From Isoetes taiwanensis (Eukaryota; Streptophyta; Lycopodiopsida; Isoetales; Isoetaceae), in contig JAJEKV010000010.1 of assembly GCA_021234155.1 (NCBI GenBank), positions 13,756,538 to 13,820,537 of the forward strand: DNA of 64,000 nucleotides, given 5' to 3'. The position numbers were made by a program, and so were the translations under genes. This document shows, one piece after another, positions 5,213 through 55,800 of this stretch (position 1 is the stretch's first letter; the number at the start of each line of letters is the position of its first letter). The notes under the pieces were generated by a model. That model was not told the origin of the DNA. It searched no databases and was given only the letters and a program-made list of their open reading frames with translations.

Positions 5213-5703
5213 GTGTCTCATTGAGCACAAGCATGGTCATGCTAAAAAAGATGGATGCAATGTAGCTTGTTTTTGATGCTATTTCAAATTGAAATTGAAA
5301 TGGCTTTATTTCCTTTGTTAAAGCACTTCGCATAGAACAATGTCATAGACTGCCTCAATTTAAAGCACTTCGCATATGGACCTCCATCTGGCTCTCCATT
5401 TCAATTTCGTGGAGGCTCTTTTCCTCCAAGAAGCAGGCCTGCAAAGAGGAGGAGGAAGAGAAAGAAAGAGAGAAAGGTGCAGGCAAAATCAAGTTTTCTT
5501 TGCTTCTCTATGTCTACAGATCCTAATTATATTCTTGAATGTGTGGATAGGTAAGTATGAGGACAAAGAAGAGCAGCAACAAACGAAGAGCAGACCAGCC
5601 TTCAATATTGCAAATATCTTGCTTTTGGAGAGCTGAAGCTAATACTGAAGCCTCCGCTCCAATTGTTGGAGACGAAATTGATCATGATGAGCAGTAGAAG
5701 ATT

Positions 5704-7493
5704 TTGAAGAACAGAAAGCTATGGCAAGACTCTTGGCTAAGAGATTGGGAATGGTTGGAGTTCCAGCATGAAAAAGGTAGAGCCTTTTGTAAATTTTGTA
5801 AAATGGACACAAAGAACCGAAGTCCATTTGGATGTCAAGGATCAATGAATATAAGAACTTCTGCATTTTTTGAGCATGCTAGTAGTGATGGCCATAGGCA
5901 TGCATCATGGTTGGCAGTACAAGGAGGAAAGAACTCTATCGAGAAAGTAGTAAAGAAAAGAAGAACTTCAGCCAATGCTTCTCTTACTAATCTCTTTAGA
6001 TGTGCATATATGATAGCAAAGGAAGATCTAGCATTCAGGAAATTTGAAAAGCTTGTTTTGTTGCTGCGTGCATGTGGTGCTAAGAATCTGACAGGACACT
6101 ATGAGAATGGAAAAGCATGTGCTAAGTTTGTCAACAGTATTAGTAAGGCTATTGAAGCAGCCACATGGGAAAGAATTAGGCAAAGTCCCTTTTATGGAAT
6201 TATGGTTGACGAGTCTACTGATATTAGTACAACAAAACACTTGATCATGTTTGCCACATTTTTAGAAGGACCACATGTTGTTACAGCCTTTCTTTCTATT
6301 AGTAAAGTGGTTGACGGTACTGCAGCATCTATCTATGAGGCCATCATAGAAAAAGTGAAAGAGTGTGAGTTGGATACATCCAAATTTGTCTCATTTGGAT
6401 CTGATGGAGCTTCAGTTATGACGGGCTGCAATACTGGTGTTGATGCTCGTCTTAAGAAACATGTCAACCCATTTATGACTAGCATACATTGTGTGGCACA
6501 TCGCACCAATCTTTGTCTTCAGGCTGTTGCTGATTTTCCTGATTGTGAGGCCATGTGCAGTTCCATAGATGAATTAGTCAATAAGGTTGCTAGTTTTTTT
6601 TCTAGAAGTACAAACAGATTAAATTTATTGACTGCAATGGAGAGAGAACTTGAATATGACGAGCTAAAGGCACAAGGAATTCAGCAAACACGATGGCTTA
6701 GTAGACATCGTGCAATAAAAAAACTTTGTGATATCTTGGAGCCGATCTTGAACGTTCTAAAGGAGGAAAGCATGACGTTGTATGACAAATTAAGAGACTT
6801 CAAGGTAATATTCTTTTTTGAAAAATGGATGACTTATATTTTTCTCATAGATGGCTGATATATTTGCACATGTTCCAGGTTATTTATGATATACTCCAGA
6901 AAATGACAGATCTAAGCCTTGATTTCCAGAAGAATTATATAGATGTCACTACGATTGGCAGCTTATGTAATAACACCATTATGGAGATTGAAGCTGAGTA
7001 TTTGCATGTGCGCCCAATTGATTTAAATGGCTTTGATTTCGATAGCAAAGGTTATCCTATCATCCCAGATTTTGGTCCTCAAGATTTTGATTCTCATCAA
7101 CGTGAAGGATTACTTTTTGCTCTACGCAGCGCACTAAAAGGTAACATGTATAGATCAATAGAGATGAGAAGGTCAATTTCAGGTGAGGACCTTACTGCTG
7201 CATTATCATTTCAAGAGGCATTTGCCCGTGCTCTAGTTGCATCTTTAAAAGATCGCATGAAAGAACAGGAATTATTGTCATATCTAAAGGTTTTAGCACC
7301 TGTGAATATGCCCCAGCGATCTAGAGAATTACAAAAGTATGGCAGCGATGAGATCCATAAACTTGCTGATTTTTTTGGCAGGAATAAGTTTGTGAATGGA
7401 AAAGAATTTCAGGCTCTTAAAGAATTTCCAAAGTTTAGGATGCAAGCTAGCACAGACTGGGCAGGAAAAAGCTTTGCTGATACTTGGACTTGA
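5704..7493 (+). pseudogene. hAT-like transposase, N-terminal and core exons
   Basis: Two exons, 5704-6804 and 6879-7493, join in frame across a 74-nt GT-AG intron (6805-6878). Residues about 16-67 form a TTF/BED-like zinc finger (CKFC at 29-32, H58 and H64). The DUF4371/RNase-H core follows, with VDESTD (Asp169), SFGSDGASVMTG (Asp234), CVAHRTN (Cys263, His266) and TRWLSR near 330. This is the hAT branch related to animal ZNF862 and C17orf113. There is no ATG at the left end: the codon at 5704 is TTG and an in-frame TAG lies at 5695-5697, with open coding-like sequence upstream of it. The second exon stops at 7493 before the dimerisation domain, which reappears at 9.07 kb. Either further introns or decay separate them; I favour decay. 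Confidence 0.85.
6805..6878 (+). other. Intron in the hAT-like gene
   Basis: The donor is CAAG|GTAATA and the acceptor is TTCCAG|GTT. Removing these 74 nt joins codon phase 0 to phase 0 and makes the frame used on each side continuous. Confidence 0.85.
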
Positions 7494-42087: not shown

Positions 42088-43487
42088 TGCCTATTTCATT
42101 GTCCATTTGTATGTAACAATTGGTTAATAACCAAGCATTTATATTTTTAAAGCCGGCTCTTGTAATAAGCCTCCAGCTTTTGTACTCTTTGTCCGTGCTT
42201 GACTTAACCCATTTAATGCAGATTGTACCGTTCTTGTTTTTTACAAGTAGATCAAATAATGTTTTTTTCCTCCATCATTATTCCCAGATCATGTCAGCTA
42301 TATCATTGCTGACCTCAATCATTCCTTCATCACCATATATTGGTATGTTTTCATAACACTTCATAATATCTACTAAAGACATTATGAATCCTATTGGGCA
42401 GATTAAGTGTCACATCATATGTTGAATTAACTATCCAACATGCATTAACTTTTCTGGGATTCCAGAATATATATTTTGCAATCATCTTGTAGCAGACATT
42501 TGGCCAAGTTTCAATGAAGTTATTGAGAATACCTGTAATGACTGCTGCCACATCCGTACATAACGTGTTGTGGGCATTTGTAAGCCACCTGTATTCCCCT
42601 TTATGGGCTTTGAATGTAGCCATTAAGTAGGGCAAACTCATTTGCGCATCATGCATATCTCCAATGTAACCTTTGATCTCCTCGACACACCTAGTCTTGA
42701 CGTGTTTGGAGGATACTGAACATTTTTCAAAATCTTGGCTTTCTAATCTGCTTTTAGCCATCTCTATGATATGCAAAGGGCAAATAAATGCTGCATTATT
42801 ATTAGCCTTATCTAATCCAGCCACATATAAATTTTTGTTAAGCCATTTGACATTTTTCATAACTTCCTGATCCTGCCAGAGAAACCTCCTGGGAATTAGA
42901 GTGCTTTTTAAGTATATCACTTTCGCATATGTCAATTTTTTCAGCATGAAAGAAATGTCCTGAATATCTTCTTCTGTTAAGTCAAGTAGGTCATACTTAT
43001 GCACTGAAAAGAATTCTTGACATAACTTTGCAAACTCTTCATTGAGTTCTTGAACGCTAAGTGGCTAATCTGGAATGTGATTTAGTCCGCATTCAAATGC
43101 CTTCTTGAGCTTATGGCAGTGGATAATATTTAAGTCTGTCCTTACATGGCCAATGCTGGGGTCTACAAATTTGCTCAAGTTAGAATTATTACATGGACAC
43201 CTGTTTGTAGAAGAATCAGCAAAGATATTAAATGGTTTGTAAACCATATCCCTAATTCGCTCTGTATATTTCCAAGCAAATATAGTATTGTCAATGATTT
43301 CTACACCTCTGTCCTGGAATATTTCCCAAAAAAAAGTTTGGAAAACCTGTCTGATGTTAAATTTATCCAATGCTTTGGATATGAATTTCATATGTACTAT
43401 TTTGTTGTTATCATCCTTACCCGAACTATGAAGGTGTTTGTTCTTATTGATGTCCTTGACAATAGTTCTGATCTTCATCTTCTCAAA
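42088..43487 (-). pseudogene. Penelope-like (Naiad/Chlamys-type) reverse transcriptase, 5' half
   Basis: The minus-strand exon starts after GACTGTAG at 43,487. It encodes a CPC motif and GHVRTDLNIIHCHKLKKAFECG, then WLNKNLYVAGLDKANNNAAF and FICPLHI, LPYLMATFKAHKGEYRWL, and ITGILNN; this order matches the palm-proximal region of Penelope-like RTs. An in-frame TAG at 43,067-43,065 interrupts it and the frame then continues unchanged. Near 42,376 a frame change leads into LVDIMKCYENIPIYGDEG, RT motif A with its catalytic Asp (codon 42,370-42,368), and further down WLLTNCYIQMDNEI, the region before motif B. The sequence is then cut by an unrelated repeat at about 42,087; motifs B and C (YxDD) are missing. 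Assignment is from remembered family motifs. Confidence 0.65.
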
Positions 43488-43917
43488 CTACAGTCATTTT
43501 TTTTAATTGATTATCTTTTACTATAATTGTAACAAAGTACAATAATATATACAAGTTTCTATTATGTACCCATGAATCAGCAAATTGCTAAAATGCATAT
43601 ATATTTACATTTTTTTTTAGCTTTAACAGCCAATGTGATCGATAACAGTACCACTTAAAATTCAGCAAATGTCGTTAGGACATGTATCATGGAGAAAATT
43701 CAAATATAACCTCATAAAAAATATATATTGCCATATTATTTCATGGCAGTAACTTCAAAAAATGCCCAATGGCTAATGTATCAAGGGTTTTTTTAATGAA
43801 AAAACAGACCCAGAAGGTAAAACTCTATGGAAATATCCCTTTGGGCTGTAAAAATATTTGAAATTCAGAATCATACAGATTCTTCCACATAATCCAGTTT
43901 TTTCTGAGTTGTATTGT
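43488..43917 (-). other. AT-rich intron-like sequence of the RT gene
   Basis: It sits between the RT exon (acceptor GACTGTAG) and the inserted LINE. No coding signature; it fits the remainder of an intron into which the LINE jumped. Confidence 0.45.
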
Positions 43918-45029
43918 CATTAAGAATAGAATAGAATAGAATATGATTTTATCGTCCCCTGAGACCAACCGCCTATGGGACCCAAGTACAAAGAGAGAGA
44001 GCAAAAAGCGACACTACCGTGATTAAAAAAACCCCCGCCTGGCGTGGCTTTTGGGGAAAACCTTAGTAGCAATAAGGATGCTGATATCTCGCATTATATA
44101 TACATAATCACAAGTACAGCTGAGGTTAATGCCTGGACAGGGGGCATAACCGAGTCCGGCGTGATCCATTACCTCCCCGAGGTATCCATCCCAACAAGCC
44201 TACGAGGCCGTGGTCAAGAGCTCATGCAAGGCCCGATGGGGCACAACTAACCGAGCATACCGAGTCCTGATATGCTCGTGCGGACAAAGCCCGAGGGCGG
44301 ACTTTCATCCTCAATGGCTCGCTGACGACCGATGGACTCCCGGTCCTCACGCTGCCCCGAATCCATCTCCCCGCCCCCACGCGGAGGTGGTGTGCACTGT
44401 GCGATCGGAAGCAATCACCCCGCTGGCTTTTCATGGGTAGATGGGTACGCAGGTAGTGGTGTGGGCCCTTGTGAGCATGGGATTAACCTCGCCGTCGATA
44501 ATTTTGCCACCTTGACATGTGGACAGGGCTCTCAGATCCCAAAGCTTGGCCATGAAGCAAGCATCCAGCATCGCTTCAAGGCAGCGCTCCTTCTGGTATG
44601 CACCGGTCCACATCCGTGGTGCCTCGCACATTCCATAGCGAACCACCGGGCTTGCTTTGTCTTTCCAAAGCCAGCTTTGAGTCGCCATGGGCCCATCGCC
44701 ACCGCCAAAGCAAGGTTGGGCAGCCGGGCTTCATCCATAGCCACCACCTTCTAGAAGTAAATAATGTGACGCTCGGTAGCCCCTCTCAGAATGGAAGGAA
44801 GCCTCGCCTCTTGGAGCAAGATCTCGATATGGGACTGTGGATTTCACTCCCGCTGCCCTGCCAAGAAAGCTTCAGACCTGCTCTAGATCGCTCCAAGTGG
44901 TGAGGGATATCACCGCCCCCACACTTCGGCCCCATAGAGGAGGACCGGTTCAACCAAGGCCCTGAACAAGTGTGCCTGGTGACCCCATGCATACAGCTCT
45001 GCCTTGTGACTGTTGTTTTGCATTGCATA
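43918..45029 (-). mobile_element. 5'-truncated LINE inserted in the RT gene
   Basis: The minus strand begins with ATGCAATGCAAAACAACAGTC and reads CKTTVTRQSCMHG and WLNRSSSMGPKCGGG in shifted frames, matching the RT C-terminal region of the LINE at 52.36-52.48 kb. It ends GACGATAAAATCAT plus a pentanucleotide tail, (ATTCT)4 (43,918-43,940), instead of poly(A). The last 60 bp match the 3' end of the 48.3-53.46 kb LINE (GTCCCATAGG, CTCAG, GGACGATAAAA). It is about 1.1 kb and carries many stops. Confidence 0.85.
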
Positions 45030-46705
45030 TTACATGATTTCCTCCTTTAGTAATGCTAAACTCATCCAAGTCTTTTGTGAGAGGTGTACCACTTTGAGAT
45101 GCATTACTTATAGTTCTAGGATCAATAGTAATCCTAGGTGGTAACCTTGGAGTAATAAAGTTTGTGTGCTTGGGCTTATTGCTACTATTGGTATATGATC
45201 TTTGCCATCCTGAGAATTTGTTGGCTGAGATACATCTTTAGAAAGGATACTGGCCTGATCATTTTTTCTGCCACATCTGCCATTTTATTATTCCAAAATT
45301 TTGCCTTCAAACTAATATCAGGGTTACTTGCATATGCAATTGTCATATCAAACAAGCCCAGGGCTCGAATCCCTCCTAATCCAATAAAGTTTCTTATCCG
45401 CTGAGATTTTATTCCTGTCTCTGCATTTATACTTGTATTTGACTCTTTGATTGAATAAAGTCTGACGTCCTTCAACAAAAAAAAAAAAAAAATTGTCATA
45501 TCAAACATATTTCTCCTTACTTCAAGGTAAGATATGTAAGCAATTACAACAGATTTCATTACCTTGTTGAGCCATTTGGAGATGATAACCATACGTAGCA
45601 TAGGTGTGGCACCAGGATAAAGCTGCTCCATGTGGTTGATAATAAACCAAATTCCTTGATCAAACCAAATGATCCCACAATTGCACTTGTCATCCTTTTT
45701 TTGGGAATTGAATTTGACTTTTTCACAATGACACTTGAAGTAAGGACAGTGTGTTCTCCAAATACGTTGCAAGTGATAGTCATTTCTTTCAATATTTGTA
45801 AAAGCCATGTGCCCTTTTTGGCCAATTTCAACAGGTGTATTTTTGATGCAATGCTGCTCGAAAAAAACCATCTTAAATGGCAGATCTGCATTCAAGATAT
45901 CAAATGTCTTATCAAGCTTATAGGCTGCAAATTTGGCATCACATATCTCATCATTAGAGATACCAGCAAGAGCAATCCATGTCTCAATATCAATAAGGGC
46001 AATAGCACCAAGATTTTGACTCTTCCAAATAGCATGTTCATGTACTGCAGCATAACATTCAACAGTTTGTTCAATGATGATTGGGAAGCATGTGGAATTT
46101 GATAGGGTTAATTCCGGTACCCCGTCTTCAATATTTGCATTATAAGTATGAACGTGTGTATTTTGAACATCCCTTTTACCATTAATAGTAGACAGATCTT
46201 CTTCTGTCAAATCTGTATCAGCAAATAGGCAATCACTCATGTCACCGGTGACTTTTAACTCCTGTGGCTTATAATTGTCATCAATTTTCTCAAAAGTAGG
46301 AGGTATAATATTATTGGTTCTTCTAAAGCCATAATACCTAACACAAAGTTGTGTGCAACTTCATCCTCAAGGCATGTTCTATAGTATATAGTACTGCTCA
46401 TGCCATTATAAATGGCAGTAAGGATTTCCTTGCATTTATACAAAGTCAAAGTTGACTTTCTTCATATGTTGAAAAACTTTAAACCATCCACTAAACCCCA
46501 AATAGGAAACTGTAGATAAACTTTTATCCAAAAGATTTACCTCCTTGAAGGTGATAAAAGAGTGGATATCCTTGTTCTTAATGCAACCAAGTAAGGTTTG
46601 TACTGCAAAATTTGAGCTAAATATACCACATTTGTCATATTCCAGCTTACTTAGCTCCTTGATCCAATTGTTGTATATATCATTATCATCCACTAGATGT
46701 GCATC
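45030..46705 (-). pseudogene. N-terminal part of the Penelope-like gene, unrecognised domain
   Basis: The exon starts after CCTGTAG at 46,705 (DAHLVDDNDIYNNWIKELSK). Open frames continue with at least two shifts (near 46,440 and 46,330) into a 351-codon ORF at 46,240-45,185. That ORF has a Cys/His cluster (HCPYFKCHCEK, then CNCG) and a hydrophobic stretch. After another shift near 45,220 it runs TPRLPPRITIDPRTISNAS up to the LINE junction. I do not recognise the domain. Its strand, splice site and position directly upstream of the RT exon suggest one gene. 51 codons of the 351-codon ORF come from a retroposon insertion (45,338-45,507). Confidence 0.5.
45338..45507 (+). mobile_element. Short tRNA-related retroposon with 17-bp target duplication
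   Basis: The direct repeat AATTGTCATATCAAACA occurs at 45338-45354 and 45491-45507. The insert (45355-45490, 136 bp) begins with AGGG CTCGAAT CCCT, a T-arm/B-box, and ends with CTTCAAC plus a long A run. It therefore looks like a 5'-truncated tRNA-derived SINE. Insert plus one repeat is 153 bp, 51 codons, and its minus strand is open, so the host reading frame survives. The duplicated target is visible as FDMTI twice in the encoded protein. Confidence 0.92.
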
Positions 46706-47040
46706 CTACAGGATAAAATATCACGTTAGTTAATAGAATATTCTATTGTACCTGATTGAAATATCATTAAAAACAAGGTTATTAGTAGAACTAATAAACT
46801 AGAATATGAAAAAAAAAACTTTATACCAGATCTGGAAACCTAATATCTTAACCATTTAAAACTTTGCAAGGATATAATTAGTTACAATTAGCAGCCCTTA
46901 TTATACACAGGTACTTATAAGACTCGGCCTTGATTCAATGATACAAAAACAATGCTATATCTTGCTTCTTCCCTAGTTTATGCTCGGACATGAAACCCTA
47001 GGCGCTCTGAAAGCCGGTCACACATTTTCAATTATAACTG
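46706..47040. other. AT-rich intron-like sequence
   Basis: Upstream of the 46,705 exon on the minus strand. No gene or motif beyond that acceptor. Confidence 0.4.
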
Positions 47041-47900
47041 GAGATCTGGAAGTCCGTTTCAGCCGAAATCTATTGCGTTGGAAAGCCATCTCAGAGATCT
47101 TTCTGTCGGTATGTGATTTGCATATGTTTCACTGATTATTTTACATCAGAAACACAGATTTTCGGGCTGCAAATTGGGGTCCCAACAAACCCTGAAGTGC
47201 TGGTGGTGCTGCCCAAACACTTTTGATCATATCCGAGATCAAGAACTCCGCTTCTCGCTGAAATTTATTGCGCTTGGAAAGTCATCTCCCAGATTTCTTC
47301 CTATTGGTATGTAATTTGTATATGTTTTCAATAATTTTTCCTCTGGAAAACTCGAATTTTCTGGCTGCAAATCGAGGGCTTAAAAACCCTCAAGTGCTCG
47401 TGGTATTGTCCACATATTTCTTATCGTATTTGGCAGATTTTAACCCGCTTCAGCTGAAATTTGTTTCGTTGGAAAGCTCCTTCAGTGATCTTTCTGAAGG
47501 TATGTGATTTGCATGTCTTTGAATGGTGTTTCCATAGCAAAACACAGATTTACAGCCTGCACCACCCACTTTGTGGTTCATATTACATTTTTGTTCATAT
47601 CTCTTTCTCTCGTGGACTCGGTTTCATGAAATTTATATCTTTGGAAAGCTCTCTCAGAGTTCTTTTCAAAGATATTTTATGTTGCTAATGTTTAGACAGG
47701 ATTTCAGAGCAAAAAAGAACAGATTTTCAGTGCTGGCTTTAGGGTTTCCATTGTCTCGATTTTTTCAGCACTATATACTTTTCTTCATATCTATTGATTT
47801 GGCGGCTCGCTTTGGGAGCAATGCATATCATTGGAATTCTTGTTCGCGGATGATTATAAAGACATATGGTTTGTACACATTTGCTCAAGATCCGAGAGGA
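47040..47900. repeat. Five degenerate tandem units, about 190 bp
   Basis: The anchor TTGGAAAG (TTGGAATT in the last) lies at 47078, 47274, 47469, 47641 and 47831. Around it recur GAAATTTATTGCG upstream and TCTTTCTG, GGTATGTGATTTGCAT and ACACAGATTTTC downstream. Spacing is 196, 195, 172 and 190 bp. It resembles non-coding arrays inside plant retrotransposons; no protein is inferred. Confidence 0.85.
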
Positions 47901-48002
47901 GAAAACAACAAGTTTTTTGCAACCCGATTTTAAGACGGATTCAGAGGGTGTGATACCATCCAATCACCTTGGCTTAAAGCATTTACATGTTGGAGCCTTG
48001 CA

Positions 48003-48275
48003 GACGGCCGTCTGAAGGGGAAAACCATTGCTTTTTTTCATTTCGCAAGCCGCCCTCAGAAGGTGGCGAGGTTGCACTAGAGGTCACGCTTTGATTTATG
48101 CACTTGAACACTTTCGCACATGTGTCCGTAAGGTGAAAGAGCCCGCAGATTTTGCTTCTTGCACTTGGAAGCCCCGCACCGCTCGACACGTGGAAGCTTT
48201 CGCATCGGGCCCTCAGAAGGGACGTAGGCTGCATCATCAAAGTGCTTGGAGGCTTTCGACAAGCCGCCCGTAAGG
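48003..48275. repeat. Repeated CGCCCTCAGAAGG / CCGTAAGGTG motif
   Basis: Five related sites: GGCCGTCTGAAGGG (48,008), CCGCCCTCAGAAGGTG (48,050), GTGTCCGTAAGGTG (48,122), GGGCCCTCAGAAGGG (48,208) and CGCCCGTAAGGTG (48,266). Several are preceded by TTTCGCA. The first lies in the palindrome GACGGCCGTC. It is just upstream of the long LINE; its role is unknown. Confidence 0.65.
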
Positions 48276-48299
48276 TGACATCCTATTCATGGCAACTCC

Positions 48300-51200
48300 A
48301 ATAGAATAGAAGAGTCTGACGAGCCCTCCCTTCATCCGTACCCTGGCAGATATGCATGTGGATGGTGCCGATATATGCCCTCTACCTAGCGCCAGACATG
48401 GCAAAGAAAACTTCTATTGGGAGAGTACATAGATGCCATCCCCAATCGCAGCCGATGACACCGCAAAATTGACAAAAGTGCATAATCGAAAAGAGAAGCG
48501 CGGAAGTCTCGCGGCAACAAGCATAGCTCTACAGCATATGATGATACTCTAGCCTAGCAAATAGTGCATCCGACGGTTTCACCACTACCAAACCGTGTGG
48601 TTGAGGAGCACCGAAACGTGGTTCAAGCAATGGCAGAGGGCAACGAGCTCTAATTGCTTGCTTGGCGAGGGGAAATGCAGGCCCCGCGACCTAAATTGCT
48701 CAAGAGGTACCGGCTACCGAAAAATCCACGAGCCAAAGATGGAGACCCGCGATACAAAGACTGAAGATGGCCTTCGCTTAGTGCACTCCGAAGGCGTATG
48801 ATAAGAAGAGTCTTATCGACATGCAAAGTTCGCGATAGATTCCTTTGTACACCGCCATGGAAACCATGACACAGACAAGCAATGTGTTGAGCAGAGACAA
48901 TGGTAACCATCTCCCGCCGGATCGAGAGGTCGAGGAGGTCACATCGCGATGCAAAAGTCCAGTCAGCTTTTGAAGAAAGCCCACAATTGAGAGCCCTTCA
49001 AAGTAGGGTTGAGACACAAGAAGTGGCCCCATCCGCAATGAATCCTATGGTGGACTCTCGCTGCGTAAACCGGAGCATAGCCCGCAGCCCAAGATCGTAA
49101 GATGCAGGAGCCGAGGGCAGCCATTGCCGAACGAGGCAAGGGCCTCAATGCATGCTCATGAGCAATTGCAATGGTGCATGCGTGAATTGACAAGGCAAGA
49201 ACAATTTCAAATAGAGCTAAGCTCCCTGGCCGGGAAGGAGAGACCACTATACCTGCCACGGCCCCCACCCGCCTAAGAGTCCAAAGGCGCCGCCCGAGGG
49301 GCCTACTACTGCACCCCCCTGCCGCCCCATGCCACCCTCCCTAACGTGAGGCCACGCTCTATGCCCCGCCGACAAAGAAACAACTCCCCGTTGTGCCGTG
49401 CGGATTGACCCAACAAATGAGAGCCCCGTGAGCCGAGGCGAGAAGCCACAATGTGGTGGTACGCGGCCCGACAGAAGGCGGGGAGGACCTCATTAACCGC
49501 TCCAAATGTTGATTCTGCTTGAATGACATTCCTCATGCCGGTAAACATTATTAGGGCGAGACGCCATGGCGCCCAAAGACCTGCAACCGCCCACGGGTGG
49601 TCACGCTCACAAAGACGAGATGCGCAAGTGAAAGCGGCCATCTTACGCCCGGTAGGCGTTCTAAAGGAACTGCCCTGTATGTTGATCGAGACCCCGACCC
49701 TACCAACAAGAAGACCGCAGCACGAGTTGGCCAAAGTTAAAAGCATTCGCTACAGATTGGGAGGAGCCGCAGGATCGATTCGGGCAAGATGCAAATTTTC
49801 AGACCGCCCCGAATCGTCGCTACGACCCTTTGCTAACCCTCCAGCAGCCTCTCCGCCGTGCCATCGCCGCCCTAGCATACCGCGCACGCCGCTCAGTTGC
49901 CTCACCTTCCGTGCTCGCATCTCAGCCGCCTTCCACCACCCCCTTCCGCTATCGCCATCGAATCTCCACCGCCGCCCTCGCCAACAAATAGGAATTGTGC
50001 CCTCCGCATGGTCTCCCCGAATTGTCGGGGCTTCCATGGCGAAGGGAGATAGTCTCAACTCGCTTGTCAGAGACATGGATCTCATCTTCCTCATGGAAAC
50101 ATGGGAGCATGCAGACACAGATACCCGACTTGCCAGATACCAGCACTACTCAATCTTCAATGATTGCACAGAAAGCGGGGTATGGGGGATTGCCCGCTAC
50201 TACCGAACAACCTTGGCACAATCAATCTCCTTGTTCAAGATAGACAAGCACAATCGCAGACTGTGGGTGCATGTGCAAAACGCAAGTGAGTGCACTCCTT
50301 TGTGGCGCCCCGCTACTTTCCACATGCGTAGCAACTTCTATCACACCCACCGATGTGGATAGGTCGAACCCTATGTCGATCTATATGATGACATACAAAG
50401 AAAGATAAGCGCTAAGGCAAGCATACTTTTTGAGACTTCAATGCACGACCGGTAGAACAACCCATGAGATTTGATCCCTTTGATCGATGATATATTGCAG
50501 CTTGCATCCCCGCAAAGGAGCTTGGCCACCTGACATCGATGACAATCGCATCACGCCACTGGCCGACAGCTTGCTTTTGCTCGCTAAAGATCTTTGACCC
50601 GGTAATCGCAATGGACTAGCACGCTGGCCTTCCACCGCAAAGAGCACTTTGTAGGCGTGAAAACCGTGGGGCGGATCTAGTGTGGTGGACTATGTGTTGG
50701 TGCCCTCGAAAGGATATGCATGTCGCCAAGCACTTTCGTGGGGAACAAGCTAATAGGGATGAAGAGATCGACCTCGCACCACTTACCACTTTTTACTTGA
50801 AGTTGGCTTGGCGGGTTGTGCGAACCCCCTGCAAATAACTCCTCACATGCCTCACCGCGATTGGATTATGAACATGCAGGGGCTTATGCCCGATGCTTAT
50901 AGATGACCCCGGCAGAAATTTTGCAATATCCTACACTAGAGCAACGTATTGTGGGGCGACCGATGTGCTTAGGATCAAGCGTAGAGAGGTGCTTTGGGAT
51001 AAGCGCCACCCGGACCTCCGTGAACACAACCTTCCCACGTAATCAATGGTTTGATACGAAGTGCAAGGAACACAAATGCCGGCTCCGCCAAGTCACGACC
51101 CCGCTTTTACCACATGTGCGGGGACAAGCATCGCGATCTTCCTTAAACCTAAGAAAGCCAGTACATTGCAACAAGATCAAAGGGAAATGTTTTTACCTCT

Positions 51201-53465
51201 TGAACGCCATCCCCAGACCTTCCGGGCTGGCGGGTTCTTAGAAAGCCAAGATGCCCCCCACGGGGAATATCACTCCCGAAAGCGGTGGAGACAATACTTG
51301 CAACAGCCTATACGACCCTCGTGGTGCACATGCAAGATACCCTTGCAAGAAGGCCCAGTGGAAATCACAGATTCTGACGCGGAACAAGGCTTGCAGCGTT
51401 TTGCCAATGGGAAAGCCCCGCACTTGGATGGCATGCCAAAGCAATTGCTTAAGTGGGCGGGGCCGCCCATAATACCGTCTGACCGCCTTGTTCAACAAGG
51501 CATTACAGAAGGTTTCCCTTTGCAAAGGGACCAATAGCAGAGTTGTTCCATATATATAAGGCAGACCCCCACCGCCCAGCCAATTATCGAACAATCATGG
51601 TCAGTTCGGTTGCAAAATTGCTTGCCGGGATTCTTGAGCGTTAGCAGTTGACGGGCCGGGCGTAGGTAAAAGCAGGTGCGGCCCTCACCCAGCAGATTCG
51701 CACTCCAAGACTCAACCATTGACTACATCTTCACGCTATAACTCGATTGAAGACAAAGAAGAACCGGGCCGATCTATATTGTTGCTTTGTGGATTTTATG
51801 GCGGCGCTTTTGACACCGTGGCTCGGAAAACTATGGGCAAGATCGGCATAAAAAGGGGTTCCTCAGAGATTTGCGCATGCAAATTAGGCAAAGCTATACT
51901 TAAAGATGCTCGGCCTTGCAGCATAAGCCAACCATTTGATAGCAAGATTCGGGGTTCGCCGTGATGCCCTCTCTCCCCAACATTGTTTGGGCTTTACATT
52001 GATCAATTGAGAGCTGGGTTGTGCGATAATGGGGGCGATGGAGCTCACCTTCTCTATCGAATCATCGAGACGGTTAATATATGCCGATGATGTGGACCTC
52101 CTAGGCTACACACACCAGCAGACATGCAACGACATCTCGATGCCCCCGACACATTCCGCTAAGCCAATCGGAGATATGCGCTACAACCCGCCAAGACTAA
52201 GGTGGTTTTCATATCATCTTCATCGCCACCGAGGGTCCCTCCTTCGCTTCGAGGCCACAATGTGGAAGTTGCATCCACATACAAATATTTGGGAGTGGAG
52301 TTTCCTTCTACTATGCACCGGGACACATCCATACGGCCACGAAGTGACTAAGCAGGAAGGCACTATATGCAATGCAAAACAATAGTCATAGAGCGGAGTT
52401 GTATGATTGGGCCCATCGACCACTGCTCAAGGTCTTAGTGGAGCCCCGCCTTTTTATATCGGTGGAAGTATGGGGCCCGGAGTATCACTTGCTACTTGAA
52501 TGACTTGGAGCAGTCCGTAAAGCCTTCTTAGTACGAGCACTAGGGGTGAAGTCCACAGTCCCATATCAAATTCTACTACAGGAGATTGATTCTTGCCTCT
52601 TCGTGAGGGCCCCCCTGATCGCCAATAATCGCCTATTTTCTAAGGTGGTCAATATGGACGATGCTCGCCTCCCCTAAACTAGCTTATATCATGGCAATGG
52701 AGCCGCAAATACCAAGGCCCTTTGAGGGAAAAGAGAGCTCAATGGTTGGCGGATGGAATGTGCAGAGCACAGTGTGCATACATGTGCAAACAGAGGCGAT
52801 CGCCATAGCTTGAGGCAATATCTTGACGATTGCTTCCTCGGCAAGCTTTGGGATGCTAATGCCCTTGAACAGTCAAGACAAAGACACTACCAAAGGCCAC
52901 ATAAATCCCACATTGAAACGAGGCTCGCAATGCTACCCCGTGCACTCCACTTGCCCATGAAAAGGCGCAGACTCATTGCCTCCATTCGCATTGGGGCACA
53001 TCATCTTCTCGAATTGAGACAGCAGATGGATTGGTGAGCCACGCCAGATGTGCTCACAATCTTTGCCAAATGGGAGTCATTGAGGATGAATCTCATACCC
53101 TTCAAAGTTGCCCAAAGATATGATCAAATTCGGACACGATATGTTGAGTTGGTCGCCCCGCCACCGCTACACATGTGACATTGAGCACGGATCCGCACGC
53201 GGCCGGATCATATCTTCAGGAGGTTATGGACATGCGAGATCAGCTATGTCCTCGGGCACACACTTGACATGTATATAAACATTGATGTATACTTGTACAG
53301 TTTGACAGTATTCTTATTATCGCCACGGTTTTTCCTCGAAACCCTTCTTTAAGGGTTTTTAACCCCCGACAAGAATAAGTTTGTCAAGCGCTCCTTATGG
53401 GTCCCATAGGTCGATTGGCCTCAGTGGACGATAAAAAATCATTCTCATTCATTCTCATATGAACA
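48300..53465 (+). mobile_element. Long degenerate LINE (EN and RT)
   Basis: The AP-endonuclease region lies at about 50,010-50,660 (NCRGF, DLIFLMETWEH, SGVWGIAR, then FNARP and later VVDYVLV in shifted frames). The reverse transcriptase spans about 51,240-52,670: FYGGAFDTVARKTM is motif A, CPLSP motif B, YADDVDLLGYTHQQ the catalytic YADD, then YAMQNNSHRAELYDW, LVEPRLF and FLVRALGVKSTVPYQILLQE. A C-terminal part continues to about 53,060 (RRRLIASIRIGAHHLLELR). The ORF1 part is probably 48.3-49.9 kb but unreadable. Stops and shifts throughout mean it is inactive. The 3' end has AAACCCTT...AAGGGTTT and GGACGATAAAA, then a CATT/CATTCT-type tail. The 1.1-kb insertion at 43.9 kb is the same family. 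Confidence 0.88.
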
Positions 53466-55800
53466 AACCTTTTAAAGAAGCAAAACATTTATATTCCATA
53501 ACATTAAGAAAGTGTAATATATGAGCCATCTTTTCATATCATGCCAGCAACATACCATTATTATGTTTATCTTTGGAAAAGTTAGTATCATACATCAGTC
53601 TTAGATATGCCATACTTTTGCGAATCAATATGTGTCAACTTCTTGCAAATAAGGAATGCAAAGGTTTTATCTCTGTCATGGTACAATATAACAGTCACAA
53701 ATAAAATTAATCTTCCAAGAAGATACCCATTTCAACATTGTCTTCAGAACTTGGTAATAGATATTTGCAAGACATTCTTGACGAAATACAATAGCAAAGA
53801 GCAACAAAACATGTTACCTGCACCCACAAACAAGGAGAAGCATCAGAACGGTTGTTATTGTGAGGGATAGCAGGCGTCATATGCTTTCTTGAGGTATCTC
53901 CCTTCACCTTGCTTGCATTCCTCTTTAGAATACAAGGTAAAAGTAGAATGAACAGCCTAGAAATAACAACCCAATACATTTTCCAGATTTAGAGTTATTA
54001 GTCTATACAATTCTAGGCTCTTTAAAAGTTAAATCAAGTATCCCAACCTGTTTGGTATCTTTAAATCCTTTAGATCTAACTGCCAATAGCAGACTTGAGC
54101 TGTAATAATCTTAGATTGACCTTTTACATATTCAATTATCAGAACAAATAATTATGAGAAATTCAATTTAACTATATCATACAGCTACTGCAGATCTCAA
54201 ATGATAAATCCAATAAAACTTAGATCTACACTTCTCAAGCAGGCCCACAATCCCAAAGTTACACATAACCAATCATAGTTGAATCTACATTAAGATATCT
54301 ATCTCAACATAATTCAAAGCTAGTGTAAATCATAATCTACATGTTCTGATGTAAAATCATATTGGCAAAGCAAAAACCTTAGATTAGATTTTCTAGCAAA
54401 GTAAAGCAATCAAAATACTAATAGATTTGCATATAGATATATTGGATTCCTGCTAAAAACCAACTGGGCAAACCTTTTTTGAGCGTTCAGCCAAGCTATT
54501 TTTGGTAACCACTCCTTTGTCCATGTCCTTGGCCATTTCGTAGCTCCCTTGAATGCCACAATCAGAGATCTCTTCAGATATTTCTGCACTTTTCCCTCTG
54601 TGGTCTAAGCTTGCAGCAGCTTTAACCAAAGCTGGATCCCTAGCTTCAGGATTATTTGCAGAGTAAGGTAAGTTAGAAGGGGTTAGAAATACCCATTTGG
54701 ACACTATCAATGGATGCCTCAGGCATTGCATCTATCTTGGCAGCCGATTTCCTGTACTGGTAGATCCTTTTTGTGTTGCCCTCTTTACTCTTCTCCTCAG
54801 CAATCCTCTTTCTGGTGGCAACATTTAAATCCCCTTTCTTTCTTGACATGCTTGATGCTAGGAGGCAGTCTCCGGCCCAACCTTTCTTGAAGGAAAAAAT
54901 GCACTACAGACAATTAAAAGCAACACTATATATATCTCTAGCTAAGGTATCTGGCCCTTCATACCGTCAGTCCCAAGATGTTACACTGCTTGTGCTCGAA
55001 AGTGAGGCAGTACTAAGTATAAGCTATTTGCAAAAATCGTATTTCTTATGCTTATCCACCATGTTCTTTCTAGCTGTAACCCTAACAGTTTTTTGGATCG
55101 CCACACTTTATAACCTTTAACTATTTCTTGCATGTAATACTTTCCAATTTTAATGTCCATGAAACAAATCATGCATTCAACACCATTTATGCATATTGCA
55201 CCTTGCCTAGATCTTTACCAACTGGAAAAATTCTTAGTCTCTAGAAAACATATCAACTATAGTAAATTTAAAAAAATAAAAATAAAAATTAAAATCCAGT
55301 CCACACTAGCCTAGGCAGCAGCCTACTAGTCGTGACATCTACATGGGTCAATCCCCATTGTAGTCTTATTTACCCATACTAGGAACAACCATGGATATCC
55401 AGTCTACAGCCAAAGCGAATAGGGCATTTAAACCATTGAGCCTAGATCTATCCTAGTGGGTCCATAAACAGGCAGACAATTTAGAAAAACCCACCTGAGT
55501 AGCTAAATTCTACACCACTTATACTATTCATTCGAAATGTACCCACTAAACCTTTATGTTCTCATGTATTCATGCCATTATTTAAGAATATTGAAGGTCA
55601 AACCATTGGACCATAGTATACAAACATGAGCTCACTTAATCTCAAAGTTGATATCGAGTGGAGGAGATGCATGATTTTTGGAGTTTTGGCAATGATAACG
55701 ATGTCTATCTATACTTGAAAGAAGGGTATATTTTTATATTTAAAAGGGTAGAACGAGCCAGCCAGGTTAGTGGAAAGCATTAGCATTGAGAGCATATACT
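53466..55800 (-). other. Exon-like fragments, unknown protein
   Basis: Minus-strand open stretches are flanked by plausible splice signals. 54,860-54,690 reads MSRKKGDLNVATRKRIAEEK, then a shift leads to PEARDPALVKAAASL and ends at AAAAAG|GTTTGC near 54,475. About 53,925-53,822 reads KVKGDTSRKHMTPAIPHNN and ends CAG|GTAACA. About 53,770-53,705 reads MSCKYLLPSSEDNVEMG. They lie upstream of the Penelope-like gene on the same strand and could be its first exons, separated from it by the LINE-bearing interval. Frameshifts suggest decay. 54,870-55,800 shows nothing recognisable. Confidence 0.35.

Follow-up and report, generated by a model that had tools for sequence, protein, structure and literature searches.

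An apparently Penelope/telomerase-type retroelement family of Isoetes taiwanensis with a probable second protein and two conserved RNA structures

Penelope-like elements (PLEs) of the Naiad/Chlamys type carry an N-terminal GIY-YIG endonuclease and a C-x-C motif between endonuclease and reverse transcriptase (RT), are not known to carry a hammerhead ribozyme and have relatives in spike-mosses; Athena and Coprina are endonuclease-deficient, or EN(-), PLEs. For one PLE studied in vitro, PMC11167929 describes reverse transcription that starts inside the RNA beside a stem-loop, with the genomic 'tail' ending on those starts, and Table 1 of PMC9033089 lists EN(-) PLEs for Selaginella, Pinus and Picea. 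Here we analyse a window of 64,000 nt from Isoetes taiwanensis (contig labelled C908:13756538-13820537; positions below are those of the window), in which a dead minus-strand RT gene is one copy of a large, apparently recently active retroelement family.

Compared with Naiad/Chlamys, the Isoetes element has the same C-x-C before the RT core and likewise no hammerhead, but the GIY-YIG domain of that clade was not found, and its first open reading frame (ORF1) is separate, probably as an alternative terminal exon. As in the EN(-) elements Athena and Coprina, no endonuclease domain was found; those elements are tied to telomeres or chromosome ends, whereas the Isoetes element is dispersed, with 19 of 20 copies cut from contigs longer than 5 Mb lying over 2 Mb away from any contig end and L001 sitting 97 kb from one. 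An element bound to chromosome ends was rejected on these contig positions, contig ends not necessarily being telomeres. The RT of the high-copy family also differs from that of L043 and L044, a PLE that the host carries at low copy number. Relative to Penelope/Poseidon, cited here and below from passages on Poseidon of Anolis (PMC11167929) and on Adineta (PMC3846280), we find the same TERT-related type of RT and the same partial tandem copies, with pseudo-long-terminal repeats (pseudo-LTRs) able to include the ORF start; copies likewise stop at one set position within the element, next to a stem-loop, and targets are AT-rich, both as in Poseidon (PMC11167929), and introns are kept, as in Adineta Penelope (PMC3846280). 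The broad features of PLEs, namely pseudo-LTR or partial tandem structure, a fixed 'tail' end and retained introns, are present. The differences are that pseudo-LTRs measure 2-3 kb in Isoetes and about 0.2 kb in Adineta (PMC3846280), that neither the C-terminal GIY-YIG domain nor the hammerhead ribozyme of Poseidon (PMC11167929) was found, and that Isoetes has a probable second protein and a pseudoknot. The same domain and ribozyme characterise the canonical EN+ PLEs as a group, which includes Neptune and Nematis. Retrozymes (PMC4918200) are similarly LTR-bounded non-autonomous units keeping only cis RNA motifs, but the motifs kept in Isoetes are a hairpin and a pseudoknot instead, and the Rfam scans gave no hammerhead. 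The word Penelope is absent from the main texts of two Isoetes genome papers, and a full-text literature search for Penelope with Isoetes returned only apparently unrelated papers.

The RT stretch at 43064-42351 has at least 150 matches in the genome (window included, all E <= 8e-74; best 150 of 2,877 candidates scored), many of them in open frames of ~690 amino acids (aa), and the upstream exon, hereafter exon 2, has at least 144 (window included, all E <= 1e-76; best 144 of 2,707 candidates scored). A sequence-only reading of the window had linked this exon to the RT by their common strand and splice context and had proposed to check whether both occur together in relatives. They do: for at least 84 of the 150 RT places listed, an exon-2 match in the same orientation is found upstream at a distance of up to 6 kb, with a median gap of 1,118 bases. 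Within the same distance it lies downstream at 7 of the 150 listed places and on the opposite strand at none.

The complete element sits between T-tracts. Its 5' half runs from T6ATTA through the 5' repeat, which holds exon 1 and most of intron 1, to GGT7, a hairpin (H1) and exon 2; its 3' half consists of exon 3 (RT), an H-type pseudoknot, a purine-rich tract, T6ATTA, the 3' repeat and GGT7. Direct repeats of 94.8-98.7% identity were present in each of the ten different loci that bear the RT and were cut to a length of at least 7 kb (L001, L004-L012). They are 1.9-2.7 kb long in the four seen whole and about 3 kb in L008 taken with L047; the repeat of L012 extends back as far as RT sequence, making a tandem unit. 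The left repeat end falls in a T-rich tract matching the internal T6ATTA in seven readable loci (L005-L011, L008 via L047), and the right end falls at GGT7 or longer, inside intron 1, in six of six (L005-L009, L012); the 3' repeat match ends early in L010 and runs off the cut in L011. Extra T's stand on both sides, with left runs of 9 to about 33 (a TTTA repeat in L010) and a right total of about 13-21 (broken by one A in L009). A 400-base probe from the L005 repeat gave at least 11 matches of 398-400 bases (best 40 of 63 candidates scored), each belonging to a pair or a triple with a spacing of 6.1-7.5 kb, plus one match in two pieces standing alone. L007 and L008 directly follow the apparent 3' end of another family member (blastn, 80%, for L007; by eye for L008). 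The right flank of L008 matches window positions 38054-37844 at 95%, where a T-run precedes the same sequence; we read this as a retroelement tail in reverse orientation. The conserved exon 1 donor and the acceptors of exons 2 and 3 suggest that introns are retained in genomic copies.

The window copy is dead and 3'-truncated, while uninterrupted relatives exist. Its parts, in element order, are as follows.

55.27 to 42.09 kb, minus strand: window copy of the retroelement, wider than 46.7-42.1 kb
about 55.26-55.29 kb: T-rich 5' end of its 5' repeat, from sequence reading
53431..55275, minus strand: 5' part of the 5' terminal repeat, by blastn to L001, L004, L009 and L010, ends approximate
54474..54849, minus strand: exon 1, frame broken, MSRKKGDLNVATRKRIAEEKSKEG..., ending AG/GTTTG (the slash marks the splice site), with readable counterparts in relatives
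46950..53430: insertion of ~6.5 kb in intron 1 and the 5' repeat, foreign to the element, seen as a gap between blastn blocks
46809..46949, minus strand: 3' part of the 5' terminal repeat, by blastn and sequence reading
46779..46798, minus strand: hairpin H1, TTTATTAGTTCTACTAATAA, by the 18-sequence alignment A4
45028..46705, minus strand: exon 2, the probable second protein (ORF1), residues 1-509, frame broken, by tblastn
about 45490-45355: insertion of ~136 bp within exon 2, by tblastn with an uninterrupted paralogue
43925..45027: insertion of ~1.1 kb inside the end of exon 2, by tblastn
43871..43924, minus strand: last codons and stop of exon 2, by comparison with paralogues
43488..43870, minus strand: stretch from exon 2 to the RT exon, ending in the putative RT acceptor TGTAG
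42092..43487, minus strand: exon 3 (RT), residues 1-467 of 697, with one in-frame TAG and frame breaks, by tblastn

The sequence-only reading had placed the gene at 42088-46705, where the features are real, but this span is too narrow, since the copy reaches upstream to about 55.27 kb. The motifs it quoted (GHV.TDL, DKANNNAAFIC, motif A and others) are present on the minus strand, in frames at 43487-42351 and 46705-45185, and its account of a dead copy with a TAG, frame breaks, two insertions and loss of the YxDD half is confirmed in each particular. With an uninterrupted paralogue as tblastn query, RT residues 2-467 of 697 fall on 43484-42092 and exon-2 residues 1-509 of 527 on 46705-45028; everything after RT residue 467 is lost, including motifs B and C (YIDD). 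The 5' repeat stops in the T-tract at 46818-46809, the end position of complete copies. Below 42,092 no 3' repeat was matched by blastn or sequence reading, and a pseudoknot model built from alignment A3 found no match in the window copy (best 14.1 bits, E 0.66, elsewhere). The insertion at 45490-45355 has a T-run at one end and flanking blast blocks that overlap by 17 bases, resembling a target duplication, and the distal end of the ~6.5-kb insertion is similar, by eye, to the end of the insertion at 43.9 kb.

Exon 1 encodes about 122 aa, starts M-x-RKKGDLN-x-[AS]TRKR... and has an AG/GT end in phase 0 in nine of nine readable loci, the donor being AAG/GTTTG in seven of these and CAG/GT in L008 and L012. 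Exon 2 starts in phase 0. The stop codon immediately before the open frame is TAG for 18 of 19 exon-2 stretches and for all 17 exon-3 paralogues listed (L010, L022, L025, L027 and L032 stand outside this list, and in L025 and L032 the open RT frame runs upstream past the acceptor). Frames were drawn from stop to stop, so an upstream stop is expected by construction; what points to an acceptor is that this codon is consistently TAG and that T-rich sequence precedes it. Exon 2 ends in its own stop, kept in position in all 14 copies listed (two of the 16 proteins in exon-2 alignment A2, L008 and L024, were omitted for broken frames), with V-x-x-S near the end in 12, and these 14 contain no conserved phase-0 splice donor near the exon end. 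Because of this kept stop, the lack of a conserved donor and the separate phase-0 acceptor of the RT exon, exon 2 is most likely a separate protein and not, as the sequence-only reading had proposed, a new N-terminal domain of the RT; the kept stop and the donor scan speak against the latter. Since exon 1 ends, and exons 2 and 3 both begin, in phase 0, the simplest reading would be one of alternative terminal exons, exon 1+2 giving ORF1p and exon 1+3 the RT.

With a ratio of nonsynonymous to synonymous substitution rates (dN/dS) of 0.06-0.15 in the seven closest pairs, exon 2 evolves, by this measure, as a protein. Residues H319, C325, C327 and C341 are invariant in A2 and C320 nearly so, a set that looks like a metal site. 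The earlier impression that the exon belongs to no recognised family agrees with our searches, in which Pfam gave A2 weak and scattered matches (best E 0.0043, in one of 16 members), the PDB chains gave no match and the genome contigs no useful relatives. A match to DUF4528 was dismissed as noise (best E 0.0098, four of 16 members; 16.3 bits in member 1 against a cut-off of 27).

The RT was characterised with alignment A1, comprising 20 RT frames that are 54-89% identical to the first (L004 and L010 omitted for broken frames; L002 and L003 represent parts of L006 and L005). Motif A reads DI-[MT]-[KR]-CYE-[NT]-IP, motif B GIPMG followed by [CS]SPAWC, and motif C R-[YF]-[IM]-DDL; C-x-C (C97 and C99 of L001) is invariant well N-terminal of the RT core. 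All 20 members match Pfam RVT_1 at E <= 1 (best 1.3e-7), the L001 match reaching 26.8 bits, under the Pfam cut-off of 29.6, and dN/dS is 0.08-0.13 in the four closest pairs. A1 was compared by hhalign with RTs of the same genome, using 60 column shuffles as control. The host PLE (L043/L044) scored 35.6, its 195 aligned columns being collinear and extending from motif A by way of B and C into the C-terminal part, and a host TERT piece (L019) scored 33.6 over 56 columns, neither score being reached by any of 60 shuffles, while Gypsy (23.2) was reached by 8 of 60 and the RT half of a long interspersed nuclear element (LINE; 16.9) by 36 of 60. This is modest evidence that the RT is of PLE/telomerase type and not of LINE or Gypsy type, both of which were rejected on these shuffle controls, and it supports the initial assignment of the gene as Penelope-like. 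Searches further afield returned no relatives: the PDB gave nothing for the L001 RT and one chance match for A1 (E 1.1), viral contigs searched with A1 and A2 gave pattern stretches only, plasmids and phages gave no match to the L001 RT, and no record of Naiad/Chlamys type was found in the viral or genome contigs searched.

Within the host genome, L043 (C957:1436026) and L044 (C920:167342) represent a low-copy PLE-type RT, present at five places alongside the high-copy family; L043 matches no Pfam family at E <= 0.01, RVT_1 included. Two further loci, L019 and L020, contain a telomerase RNA-binding domain, and L020 is Asn- and Ser-rich and looks divergent or foreign.

We also searched for GIY-YIG domains. 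The genome has at least 121 matches (best 150 of 263 candidates scored), and none of these comes closer than 10 kb to a listed place of the RT or of exon 2. When A2 and A1 were compared by hhalign with host GIY-YIG frames, no such domain was revealed in exon 2 or RT, and Pfam gave none in the 20 RT proteins. On genome positions and hhalign a GIY-YIG domain within exon 2 or beside the RT was rejected, and the check for one in intact relatives that the sequence-only reading had suggested was run and found none. On present sequences the element is best filed as an endonuclease-less, dispersed, two-protein variant that is PLE-type in the broad sense, and not as Naiad/Chlamys, because the defining GIY-YIG domain was looked for and not found. 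Elsewhere in the genome, three of six GIY-YIG loci that were cut (L015, L016, L018) lie beside a C-terminal frame of a Pif1-type helicase, an assignment from a weak Pfam match on L015; they possibly represent a helicase plus GIY-YIG family of mobile elements in Isoetes.

Two RNA structures are conserved in the family. Hairpin H1 follows closely on the 3' side of GGT7, from which it is separated by a few bases whose last three are CAG (TAG in the window), and has eight pairs in the form stem-GUU-N-[UA]-AC-stem. In A4, with 18 of 19 upstream stretches (L026 omitted, its frame start lying off the acceptor), 95.8% of positions pair, compared with 78.7% in shuffled alignments and 19-57% in slid versions; double-change cells number 28 versus 7.5 (0 of 500 shuffles) and pairs with a double change 5 versus 3.1 (6 of 500). 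The second structure, an H-type pseudoknot of order P1a-P2a-P1b-P2b, lies just 5' of the internal T6ATTA, with the purine-rich tract between the two, and was aligned in A3 from 18 of 22 stretches of the 3' untranslated region (omitting L025, L027, L005, which was too short, and L010, in which the P2 loop strand is deleted; L005 and L010 still match the A3-derived model at 105.9 and 89.9 bits). As a whole it is 90.5% paired versus 87.9% shuffled, and nine pairs show double changes versus 3.7 (0 of 500), among them five of 11 pairs in P2 and one of 10 in P1; for both structures the shuffle counts ignore the relatedness of the sequences and are not probabilities. P1 and P2 share AAGG (A3 columns 29-32), and because they compete for it a two-state RNA switch is possible. 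Rfam gave no match at gathering scores in L001-L004 and the window, and at E <= 5 in L005, L007 and L009 one microRNA match far under its cut-off and no ribozyme; on these scans a known ribozyme was rejected for the sequences covered. A fold like that of hepatitis delta virus was discarded for the pseudoknot region, the two extra hairpins of that fold being absent when checked by hand.

The best evidence on the role of these structures comes from copies that have lost the coding part. The exact pseudoknot pattern occurs 45 times in the genome and not once when read backwards. A listed RT match lies 0.96-1.55 kb upstream of 22 occurrences and an exon-2 match only accompanies six more, while the remaining 17 have neither among the matches listed; nine of these 17 stand in tandem sets on C1054 (six) and C935 (three), spaced 2.6-6.1 kb apart in the pattern search. 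Two arrays were cut from these sets.

C1054:4019600-4027600 (L048): non-autonomous tandem array
C935:1897600-1907599 (L049): non-autonomous tandem array

Both consist of head-to-tail units with pseudoknots 2.6-4.3 kb apart and retain T-tract-ATTA, the GGT-tract, H1 (two and three copies) and the pseudoknot (three and four copies), the H1 stem differing in sequence yet still pairing. RT residues 657-690 (34 aa) match before two of three and three of four pseudoknots, respectively; beyond this, neither array gave a match to the RT or to exon 2 or showed the exon-1 start motif. Because H1 and the pseudoknot both survive where the coding part is gone, they look like cis signals.

Taken as a whole, the window copy is, with moderate probability, a dead member of a high-copy family of PLE/telomerase type that combines alternative splicing, internal priming at the U-tract of H1 and a circular or tandem template. 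From the observed anatomy, covariation and T-tract flanks we infer binding, priming, template form, nicking agent, splicing and ORF1 function along the following lines. Splicing would join exon 1 to one of two partners, yielding ORF1p with exon 2 and the RT with exon 3, and the RT would bind unspliced element RNA at H1, at the pseudoknot or at both. A genomic A-tract would prime the copying, which would begin inside the RNA, at the U-tract next to H1. The 3' ends of Isoetes copies lie beside H1 much as the genomic 'tail' ends lie beside the stem-loop in the PLE studied in vitro. On a circular or tandem template the RT would pass one whole unit and stop at the second U-tract, beside the pseudoknot, an outcome that would leave both terminal repeats, two fixed ends, retained introns and head-to-tail arrays. 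The target may be nicked by ORF1p, by the host or through pre-existing nicks in A/T tracts; we look to a source other than a cis endonuclease because no GIY-YIG domain was found.

A number of observations weigh against this explanation. The RT-PLE hhalign match is weak by itself (probability 15%, E 0.0017), and plain HMMER gives the TERT piece 10.2 bits and the host PLE -0.5 bits, for which reason the PLE link rests on profile comparison; moreover, L043 and L044 were labelled PLE through PLE motifs and a Poseidon-type consensus composed for the search, which matches them at E 6e-18 and 2e-17 with 30% identity and finds five genome places in all. An AlphaFold model of the window's exon-2 piece alone has a predicted local distance difference test score (pLDDT) of 31. 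Pairing is weak in the stem that adjoins the T-tract (78-81% in helices 3 and 4). RNAalifold, a program limited to folds without pseudoknots, recovers P1 but draws the 3' stem differently. The Rfam scans contained no hammerhead or other ribozyme, hence no direct support for circular RNA, and multimeric linear transcripts or recombination could give the tandems. Target-site duplications are unreadable, since both flanks are T, and the fixed ends with a purine-rich tract also suit an LTR-type cycle. Such a cycle, with true LTRs, H1 marking the primer-binding site, the purine-rich tract serving as polypurine tract and a borrowed integrase, would account for long repeats in ten of ten loci with two fixed ends where readable and for the conserved purine-rich tract directly 5' of the 3' repeat, where a polypurine tract belongs; it nevertheless seems improbable, as Pfam found no integrase, RNase H or protease in the frames of exons 1-3, the RT is not Gypsy-like in the hhalign comparison with a host Gypsy element, genomic copies keep their introns and the ends are T-tracts, not TG..CA. 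Antisense templates, which passages of PMC3846280 propose to explain kept introns in Adineta PLEs, may offer another route, and the left-end T-runs would also fit a tailed antisense RNA.

The proteins admit alternatives of their own. A single polyprotein, in which exons 1, 2 and 3 are joined through a weak or shifting donor and exon 2 forms the N-terminal part of the RT protein, would agree with three exons all in phase 0 and with the single ORF of canonical PLEs described in passages of PMC11167929. Most copies do have an aligned GT about 15 nt before the exon-2 stop, but by a donor weight table it scores -4.0 to 0.4 bits (in the eight copies where it is among the three listed) versus 3.3-6.6 for exon-1 donors. 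In four of 14 copies (L001, L005, L021, L029) a phase-0 GT of 5.9-7.0 bits, as good as those donors, lies in the last 240 nt of exon 2, which counts against two proteins; these GTs stand at differing places, 60, 141, 102 and 204 nt before the stop, and with that stop kept in all 14 listed copies we regard the polyprotein as unlikely. Descent is a further matter. That the RT stems from the Naiad/Chlamys branch of N-terminal EN+ PLEs, with GIY-YIG lost and ORF1 gained, is a possibility we rate somewhat short of even, and it is compatible with the internally primed, alternatively spliced PLE preferred above. The invariant C-x-C before the RT core speaks for it, as does the microsatellite insertion bias of the clade, and a Naiad-like consensus matches A1 over 491 columns, which is a lead only, the consensus having been composed with A1 already known. 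Against it speaks that GIY-YIG was not found, neither among the 121 or more genome matches within 10 kb of the listed RT and exon-2 places nor by hhalign in exon 2 or the RT. More tentatively still, the family may be a new PLE lineage in which GIY-YIG has been replaced by an alternatively spliced ORF1p, hairpin and pseudoknot set start and stop on a circular or tandem template, and U-tracts pair with genomic A-tracts, so that no sequence-specific endonuclease is needed.

Apart from the retroelement, a plus-strand frame at 5698-7493 of the window encodes a zf-C17orf113 zinc finger (E 8.8e-13) and matches DUF4371 below threshold. A second frame that has no Pfam matches overlaps it, and the whole looks like a broken transposase gene.

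How PLEs build pseudo-LTRs, keep introns and choose their ends is poorly known. A single Isoetes genome supplies for this purpose a family with at least 150 RT matches, with members free of interruption, precisely placed ends and two covarying RNA structures, together with natural deletion derivatives, the tandem arrays, that point to minimal cis signals. The family would bring a second conserved protein into a class that most descriptions treat as single-ORF. As a dispersed lineage without a recognisable endonuclease, it also makes one ask by what means the target is opened.

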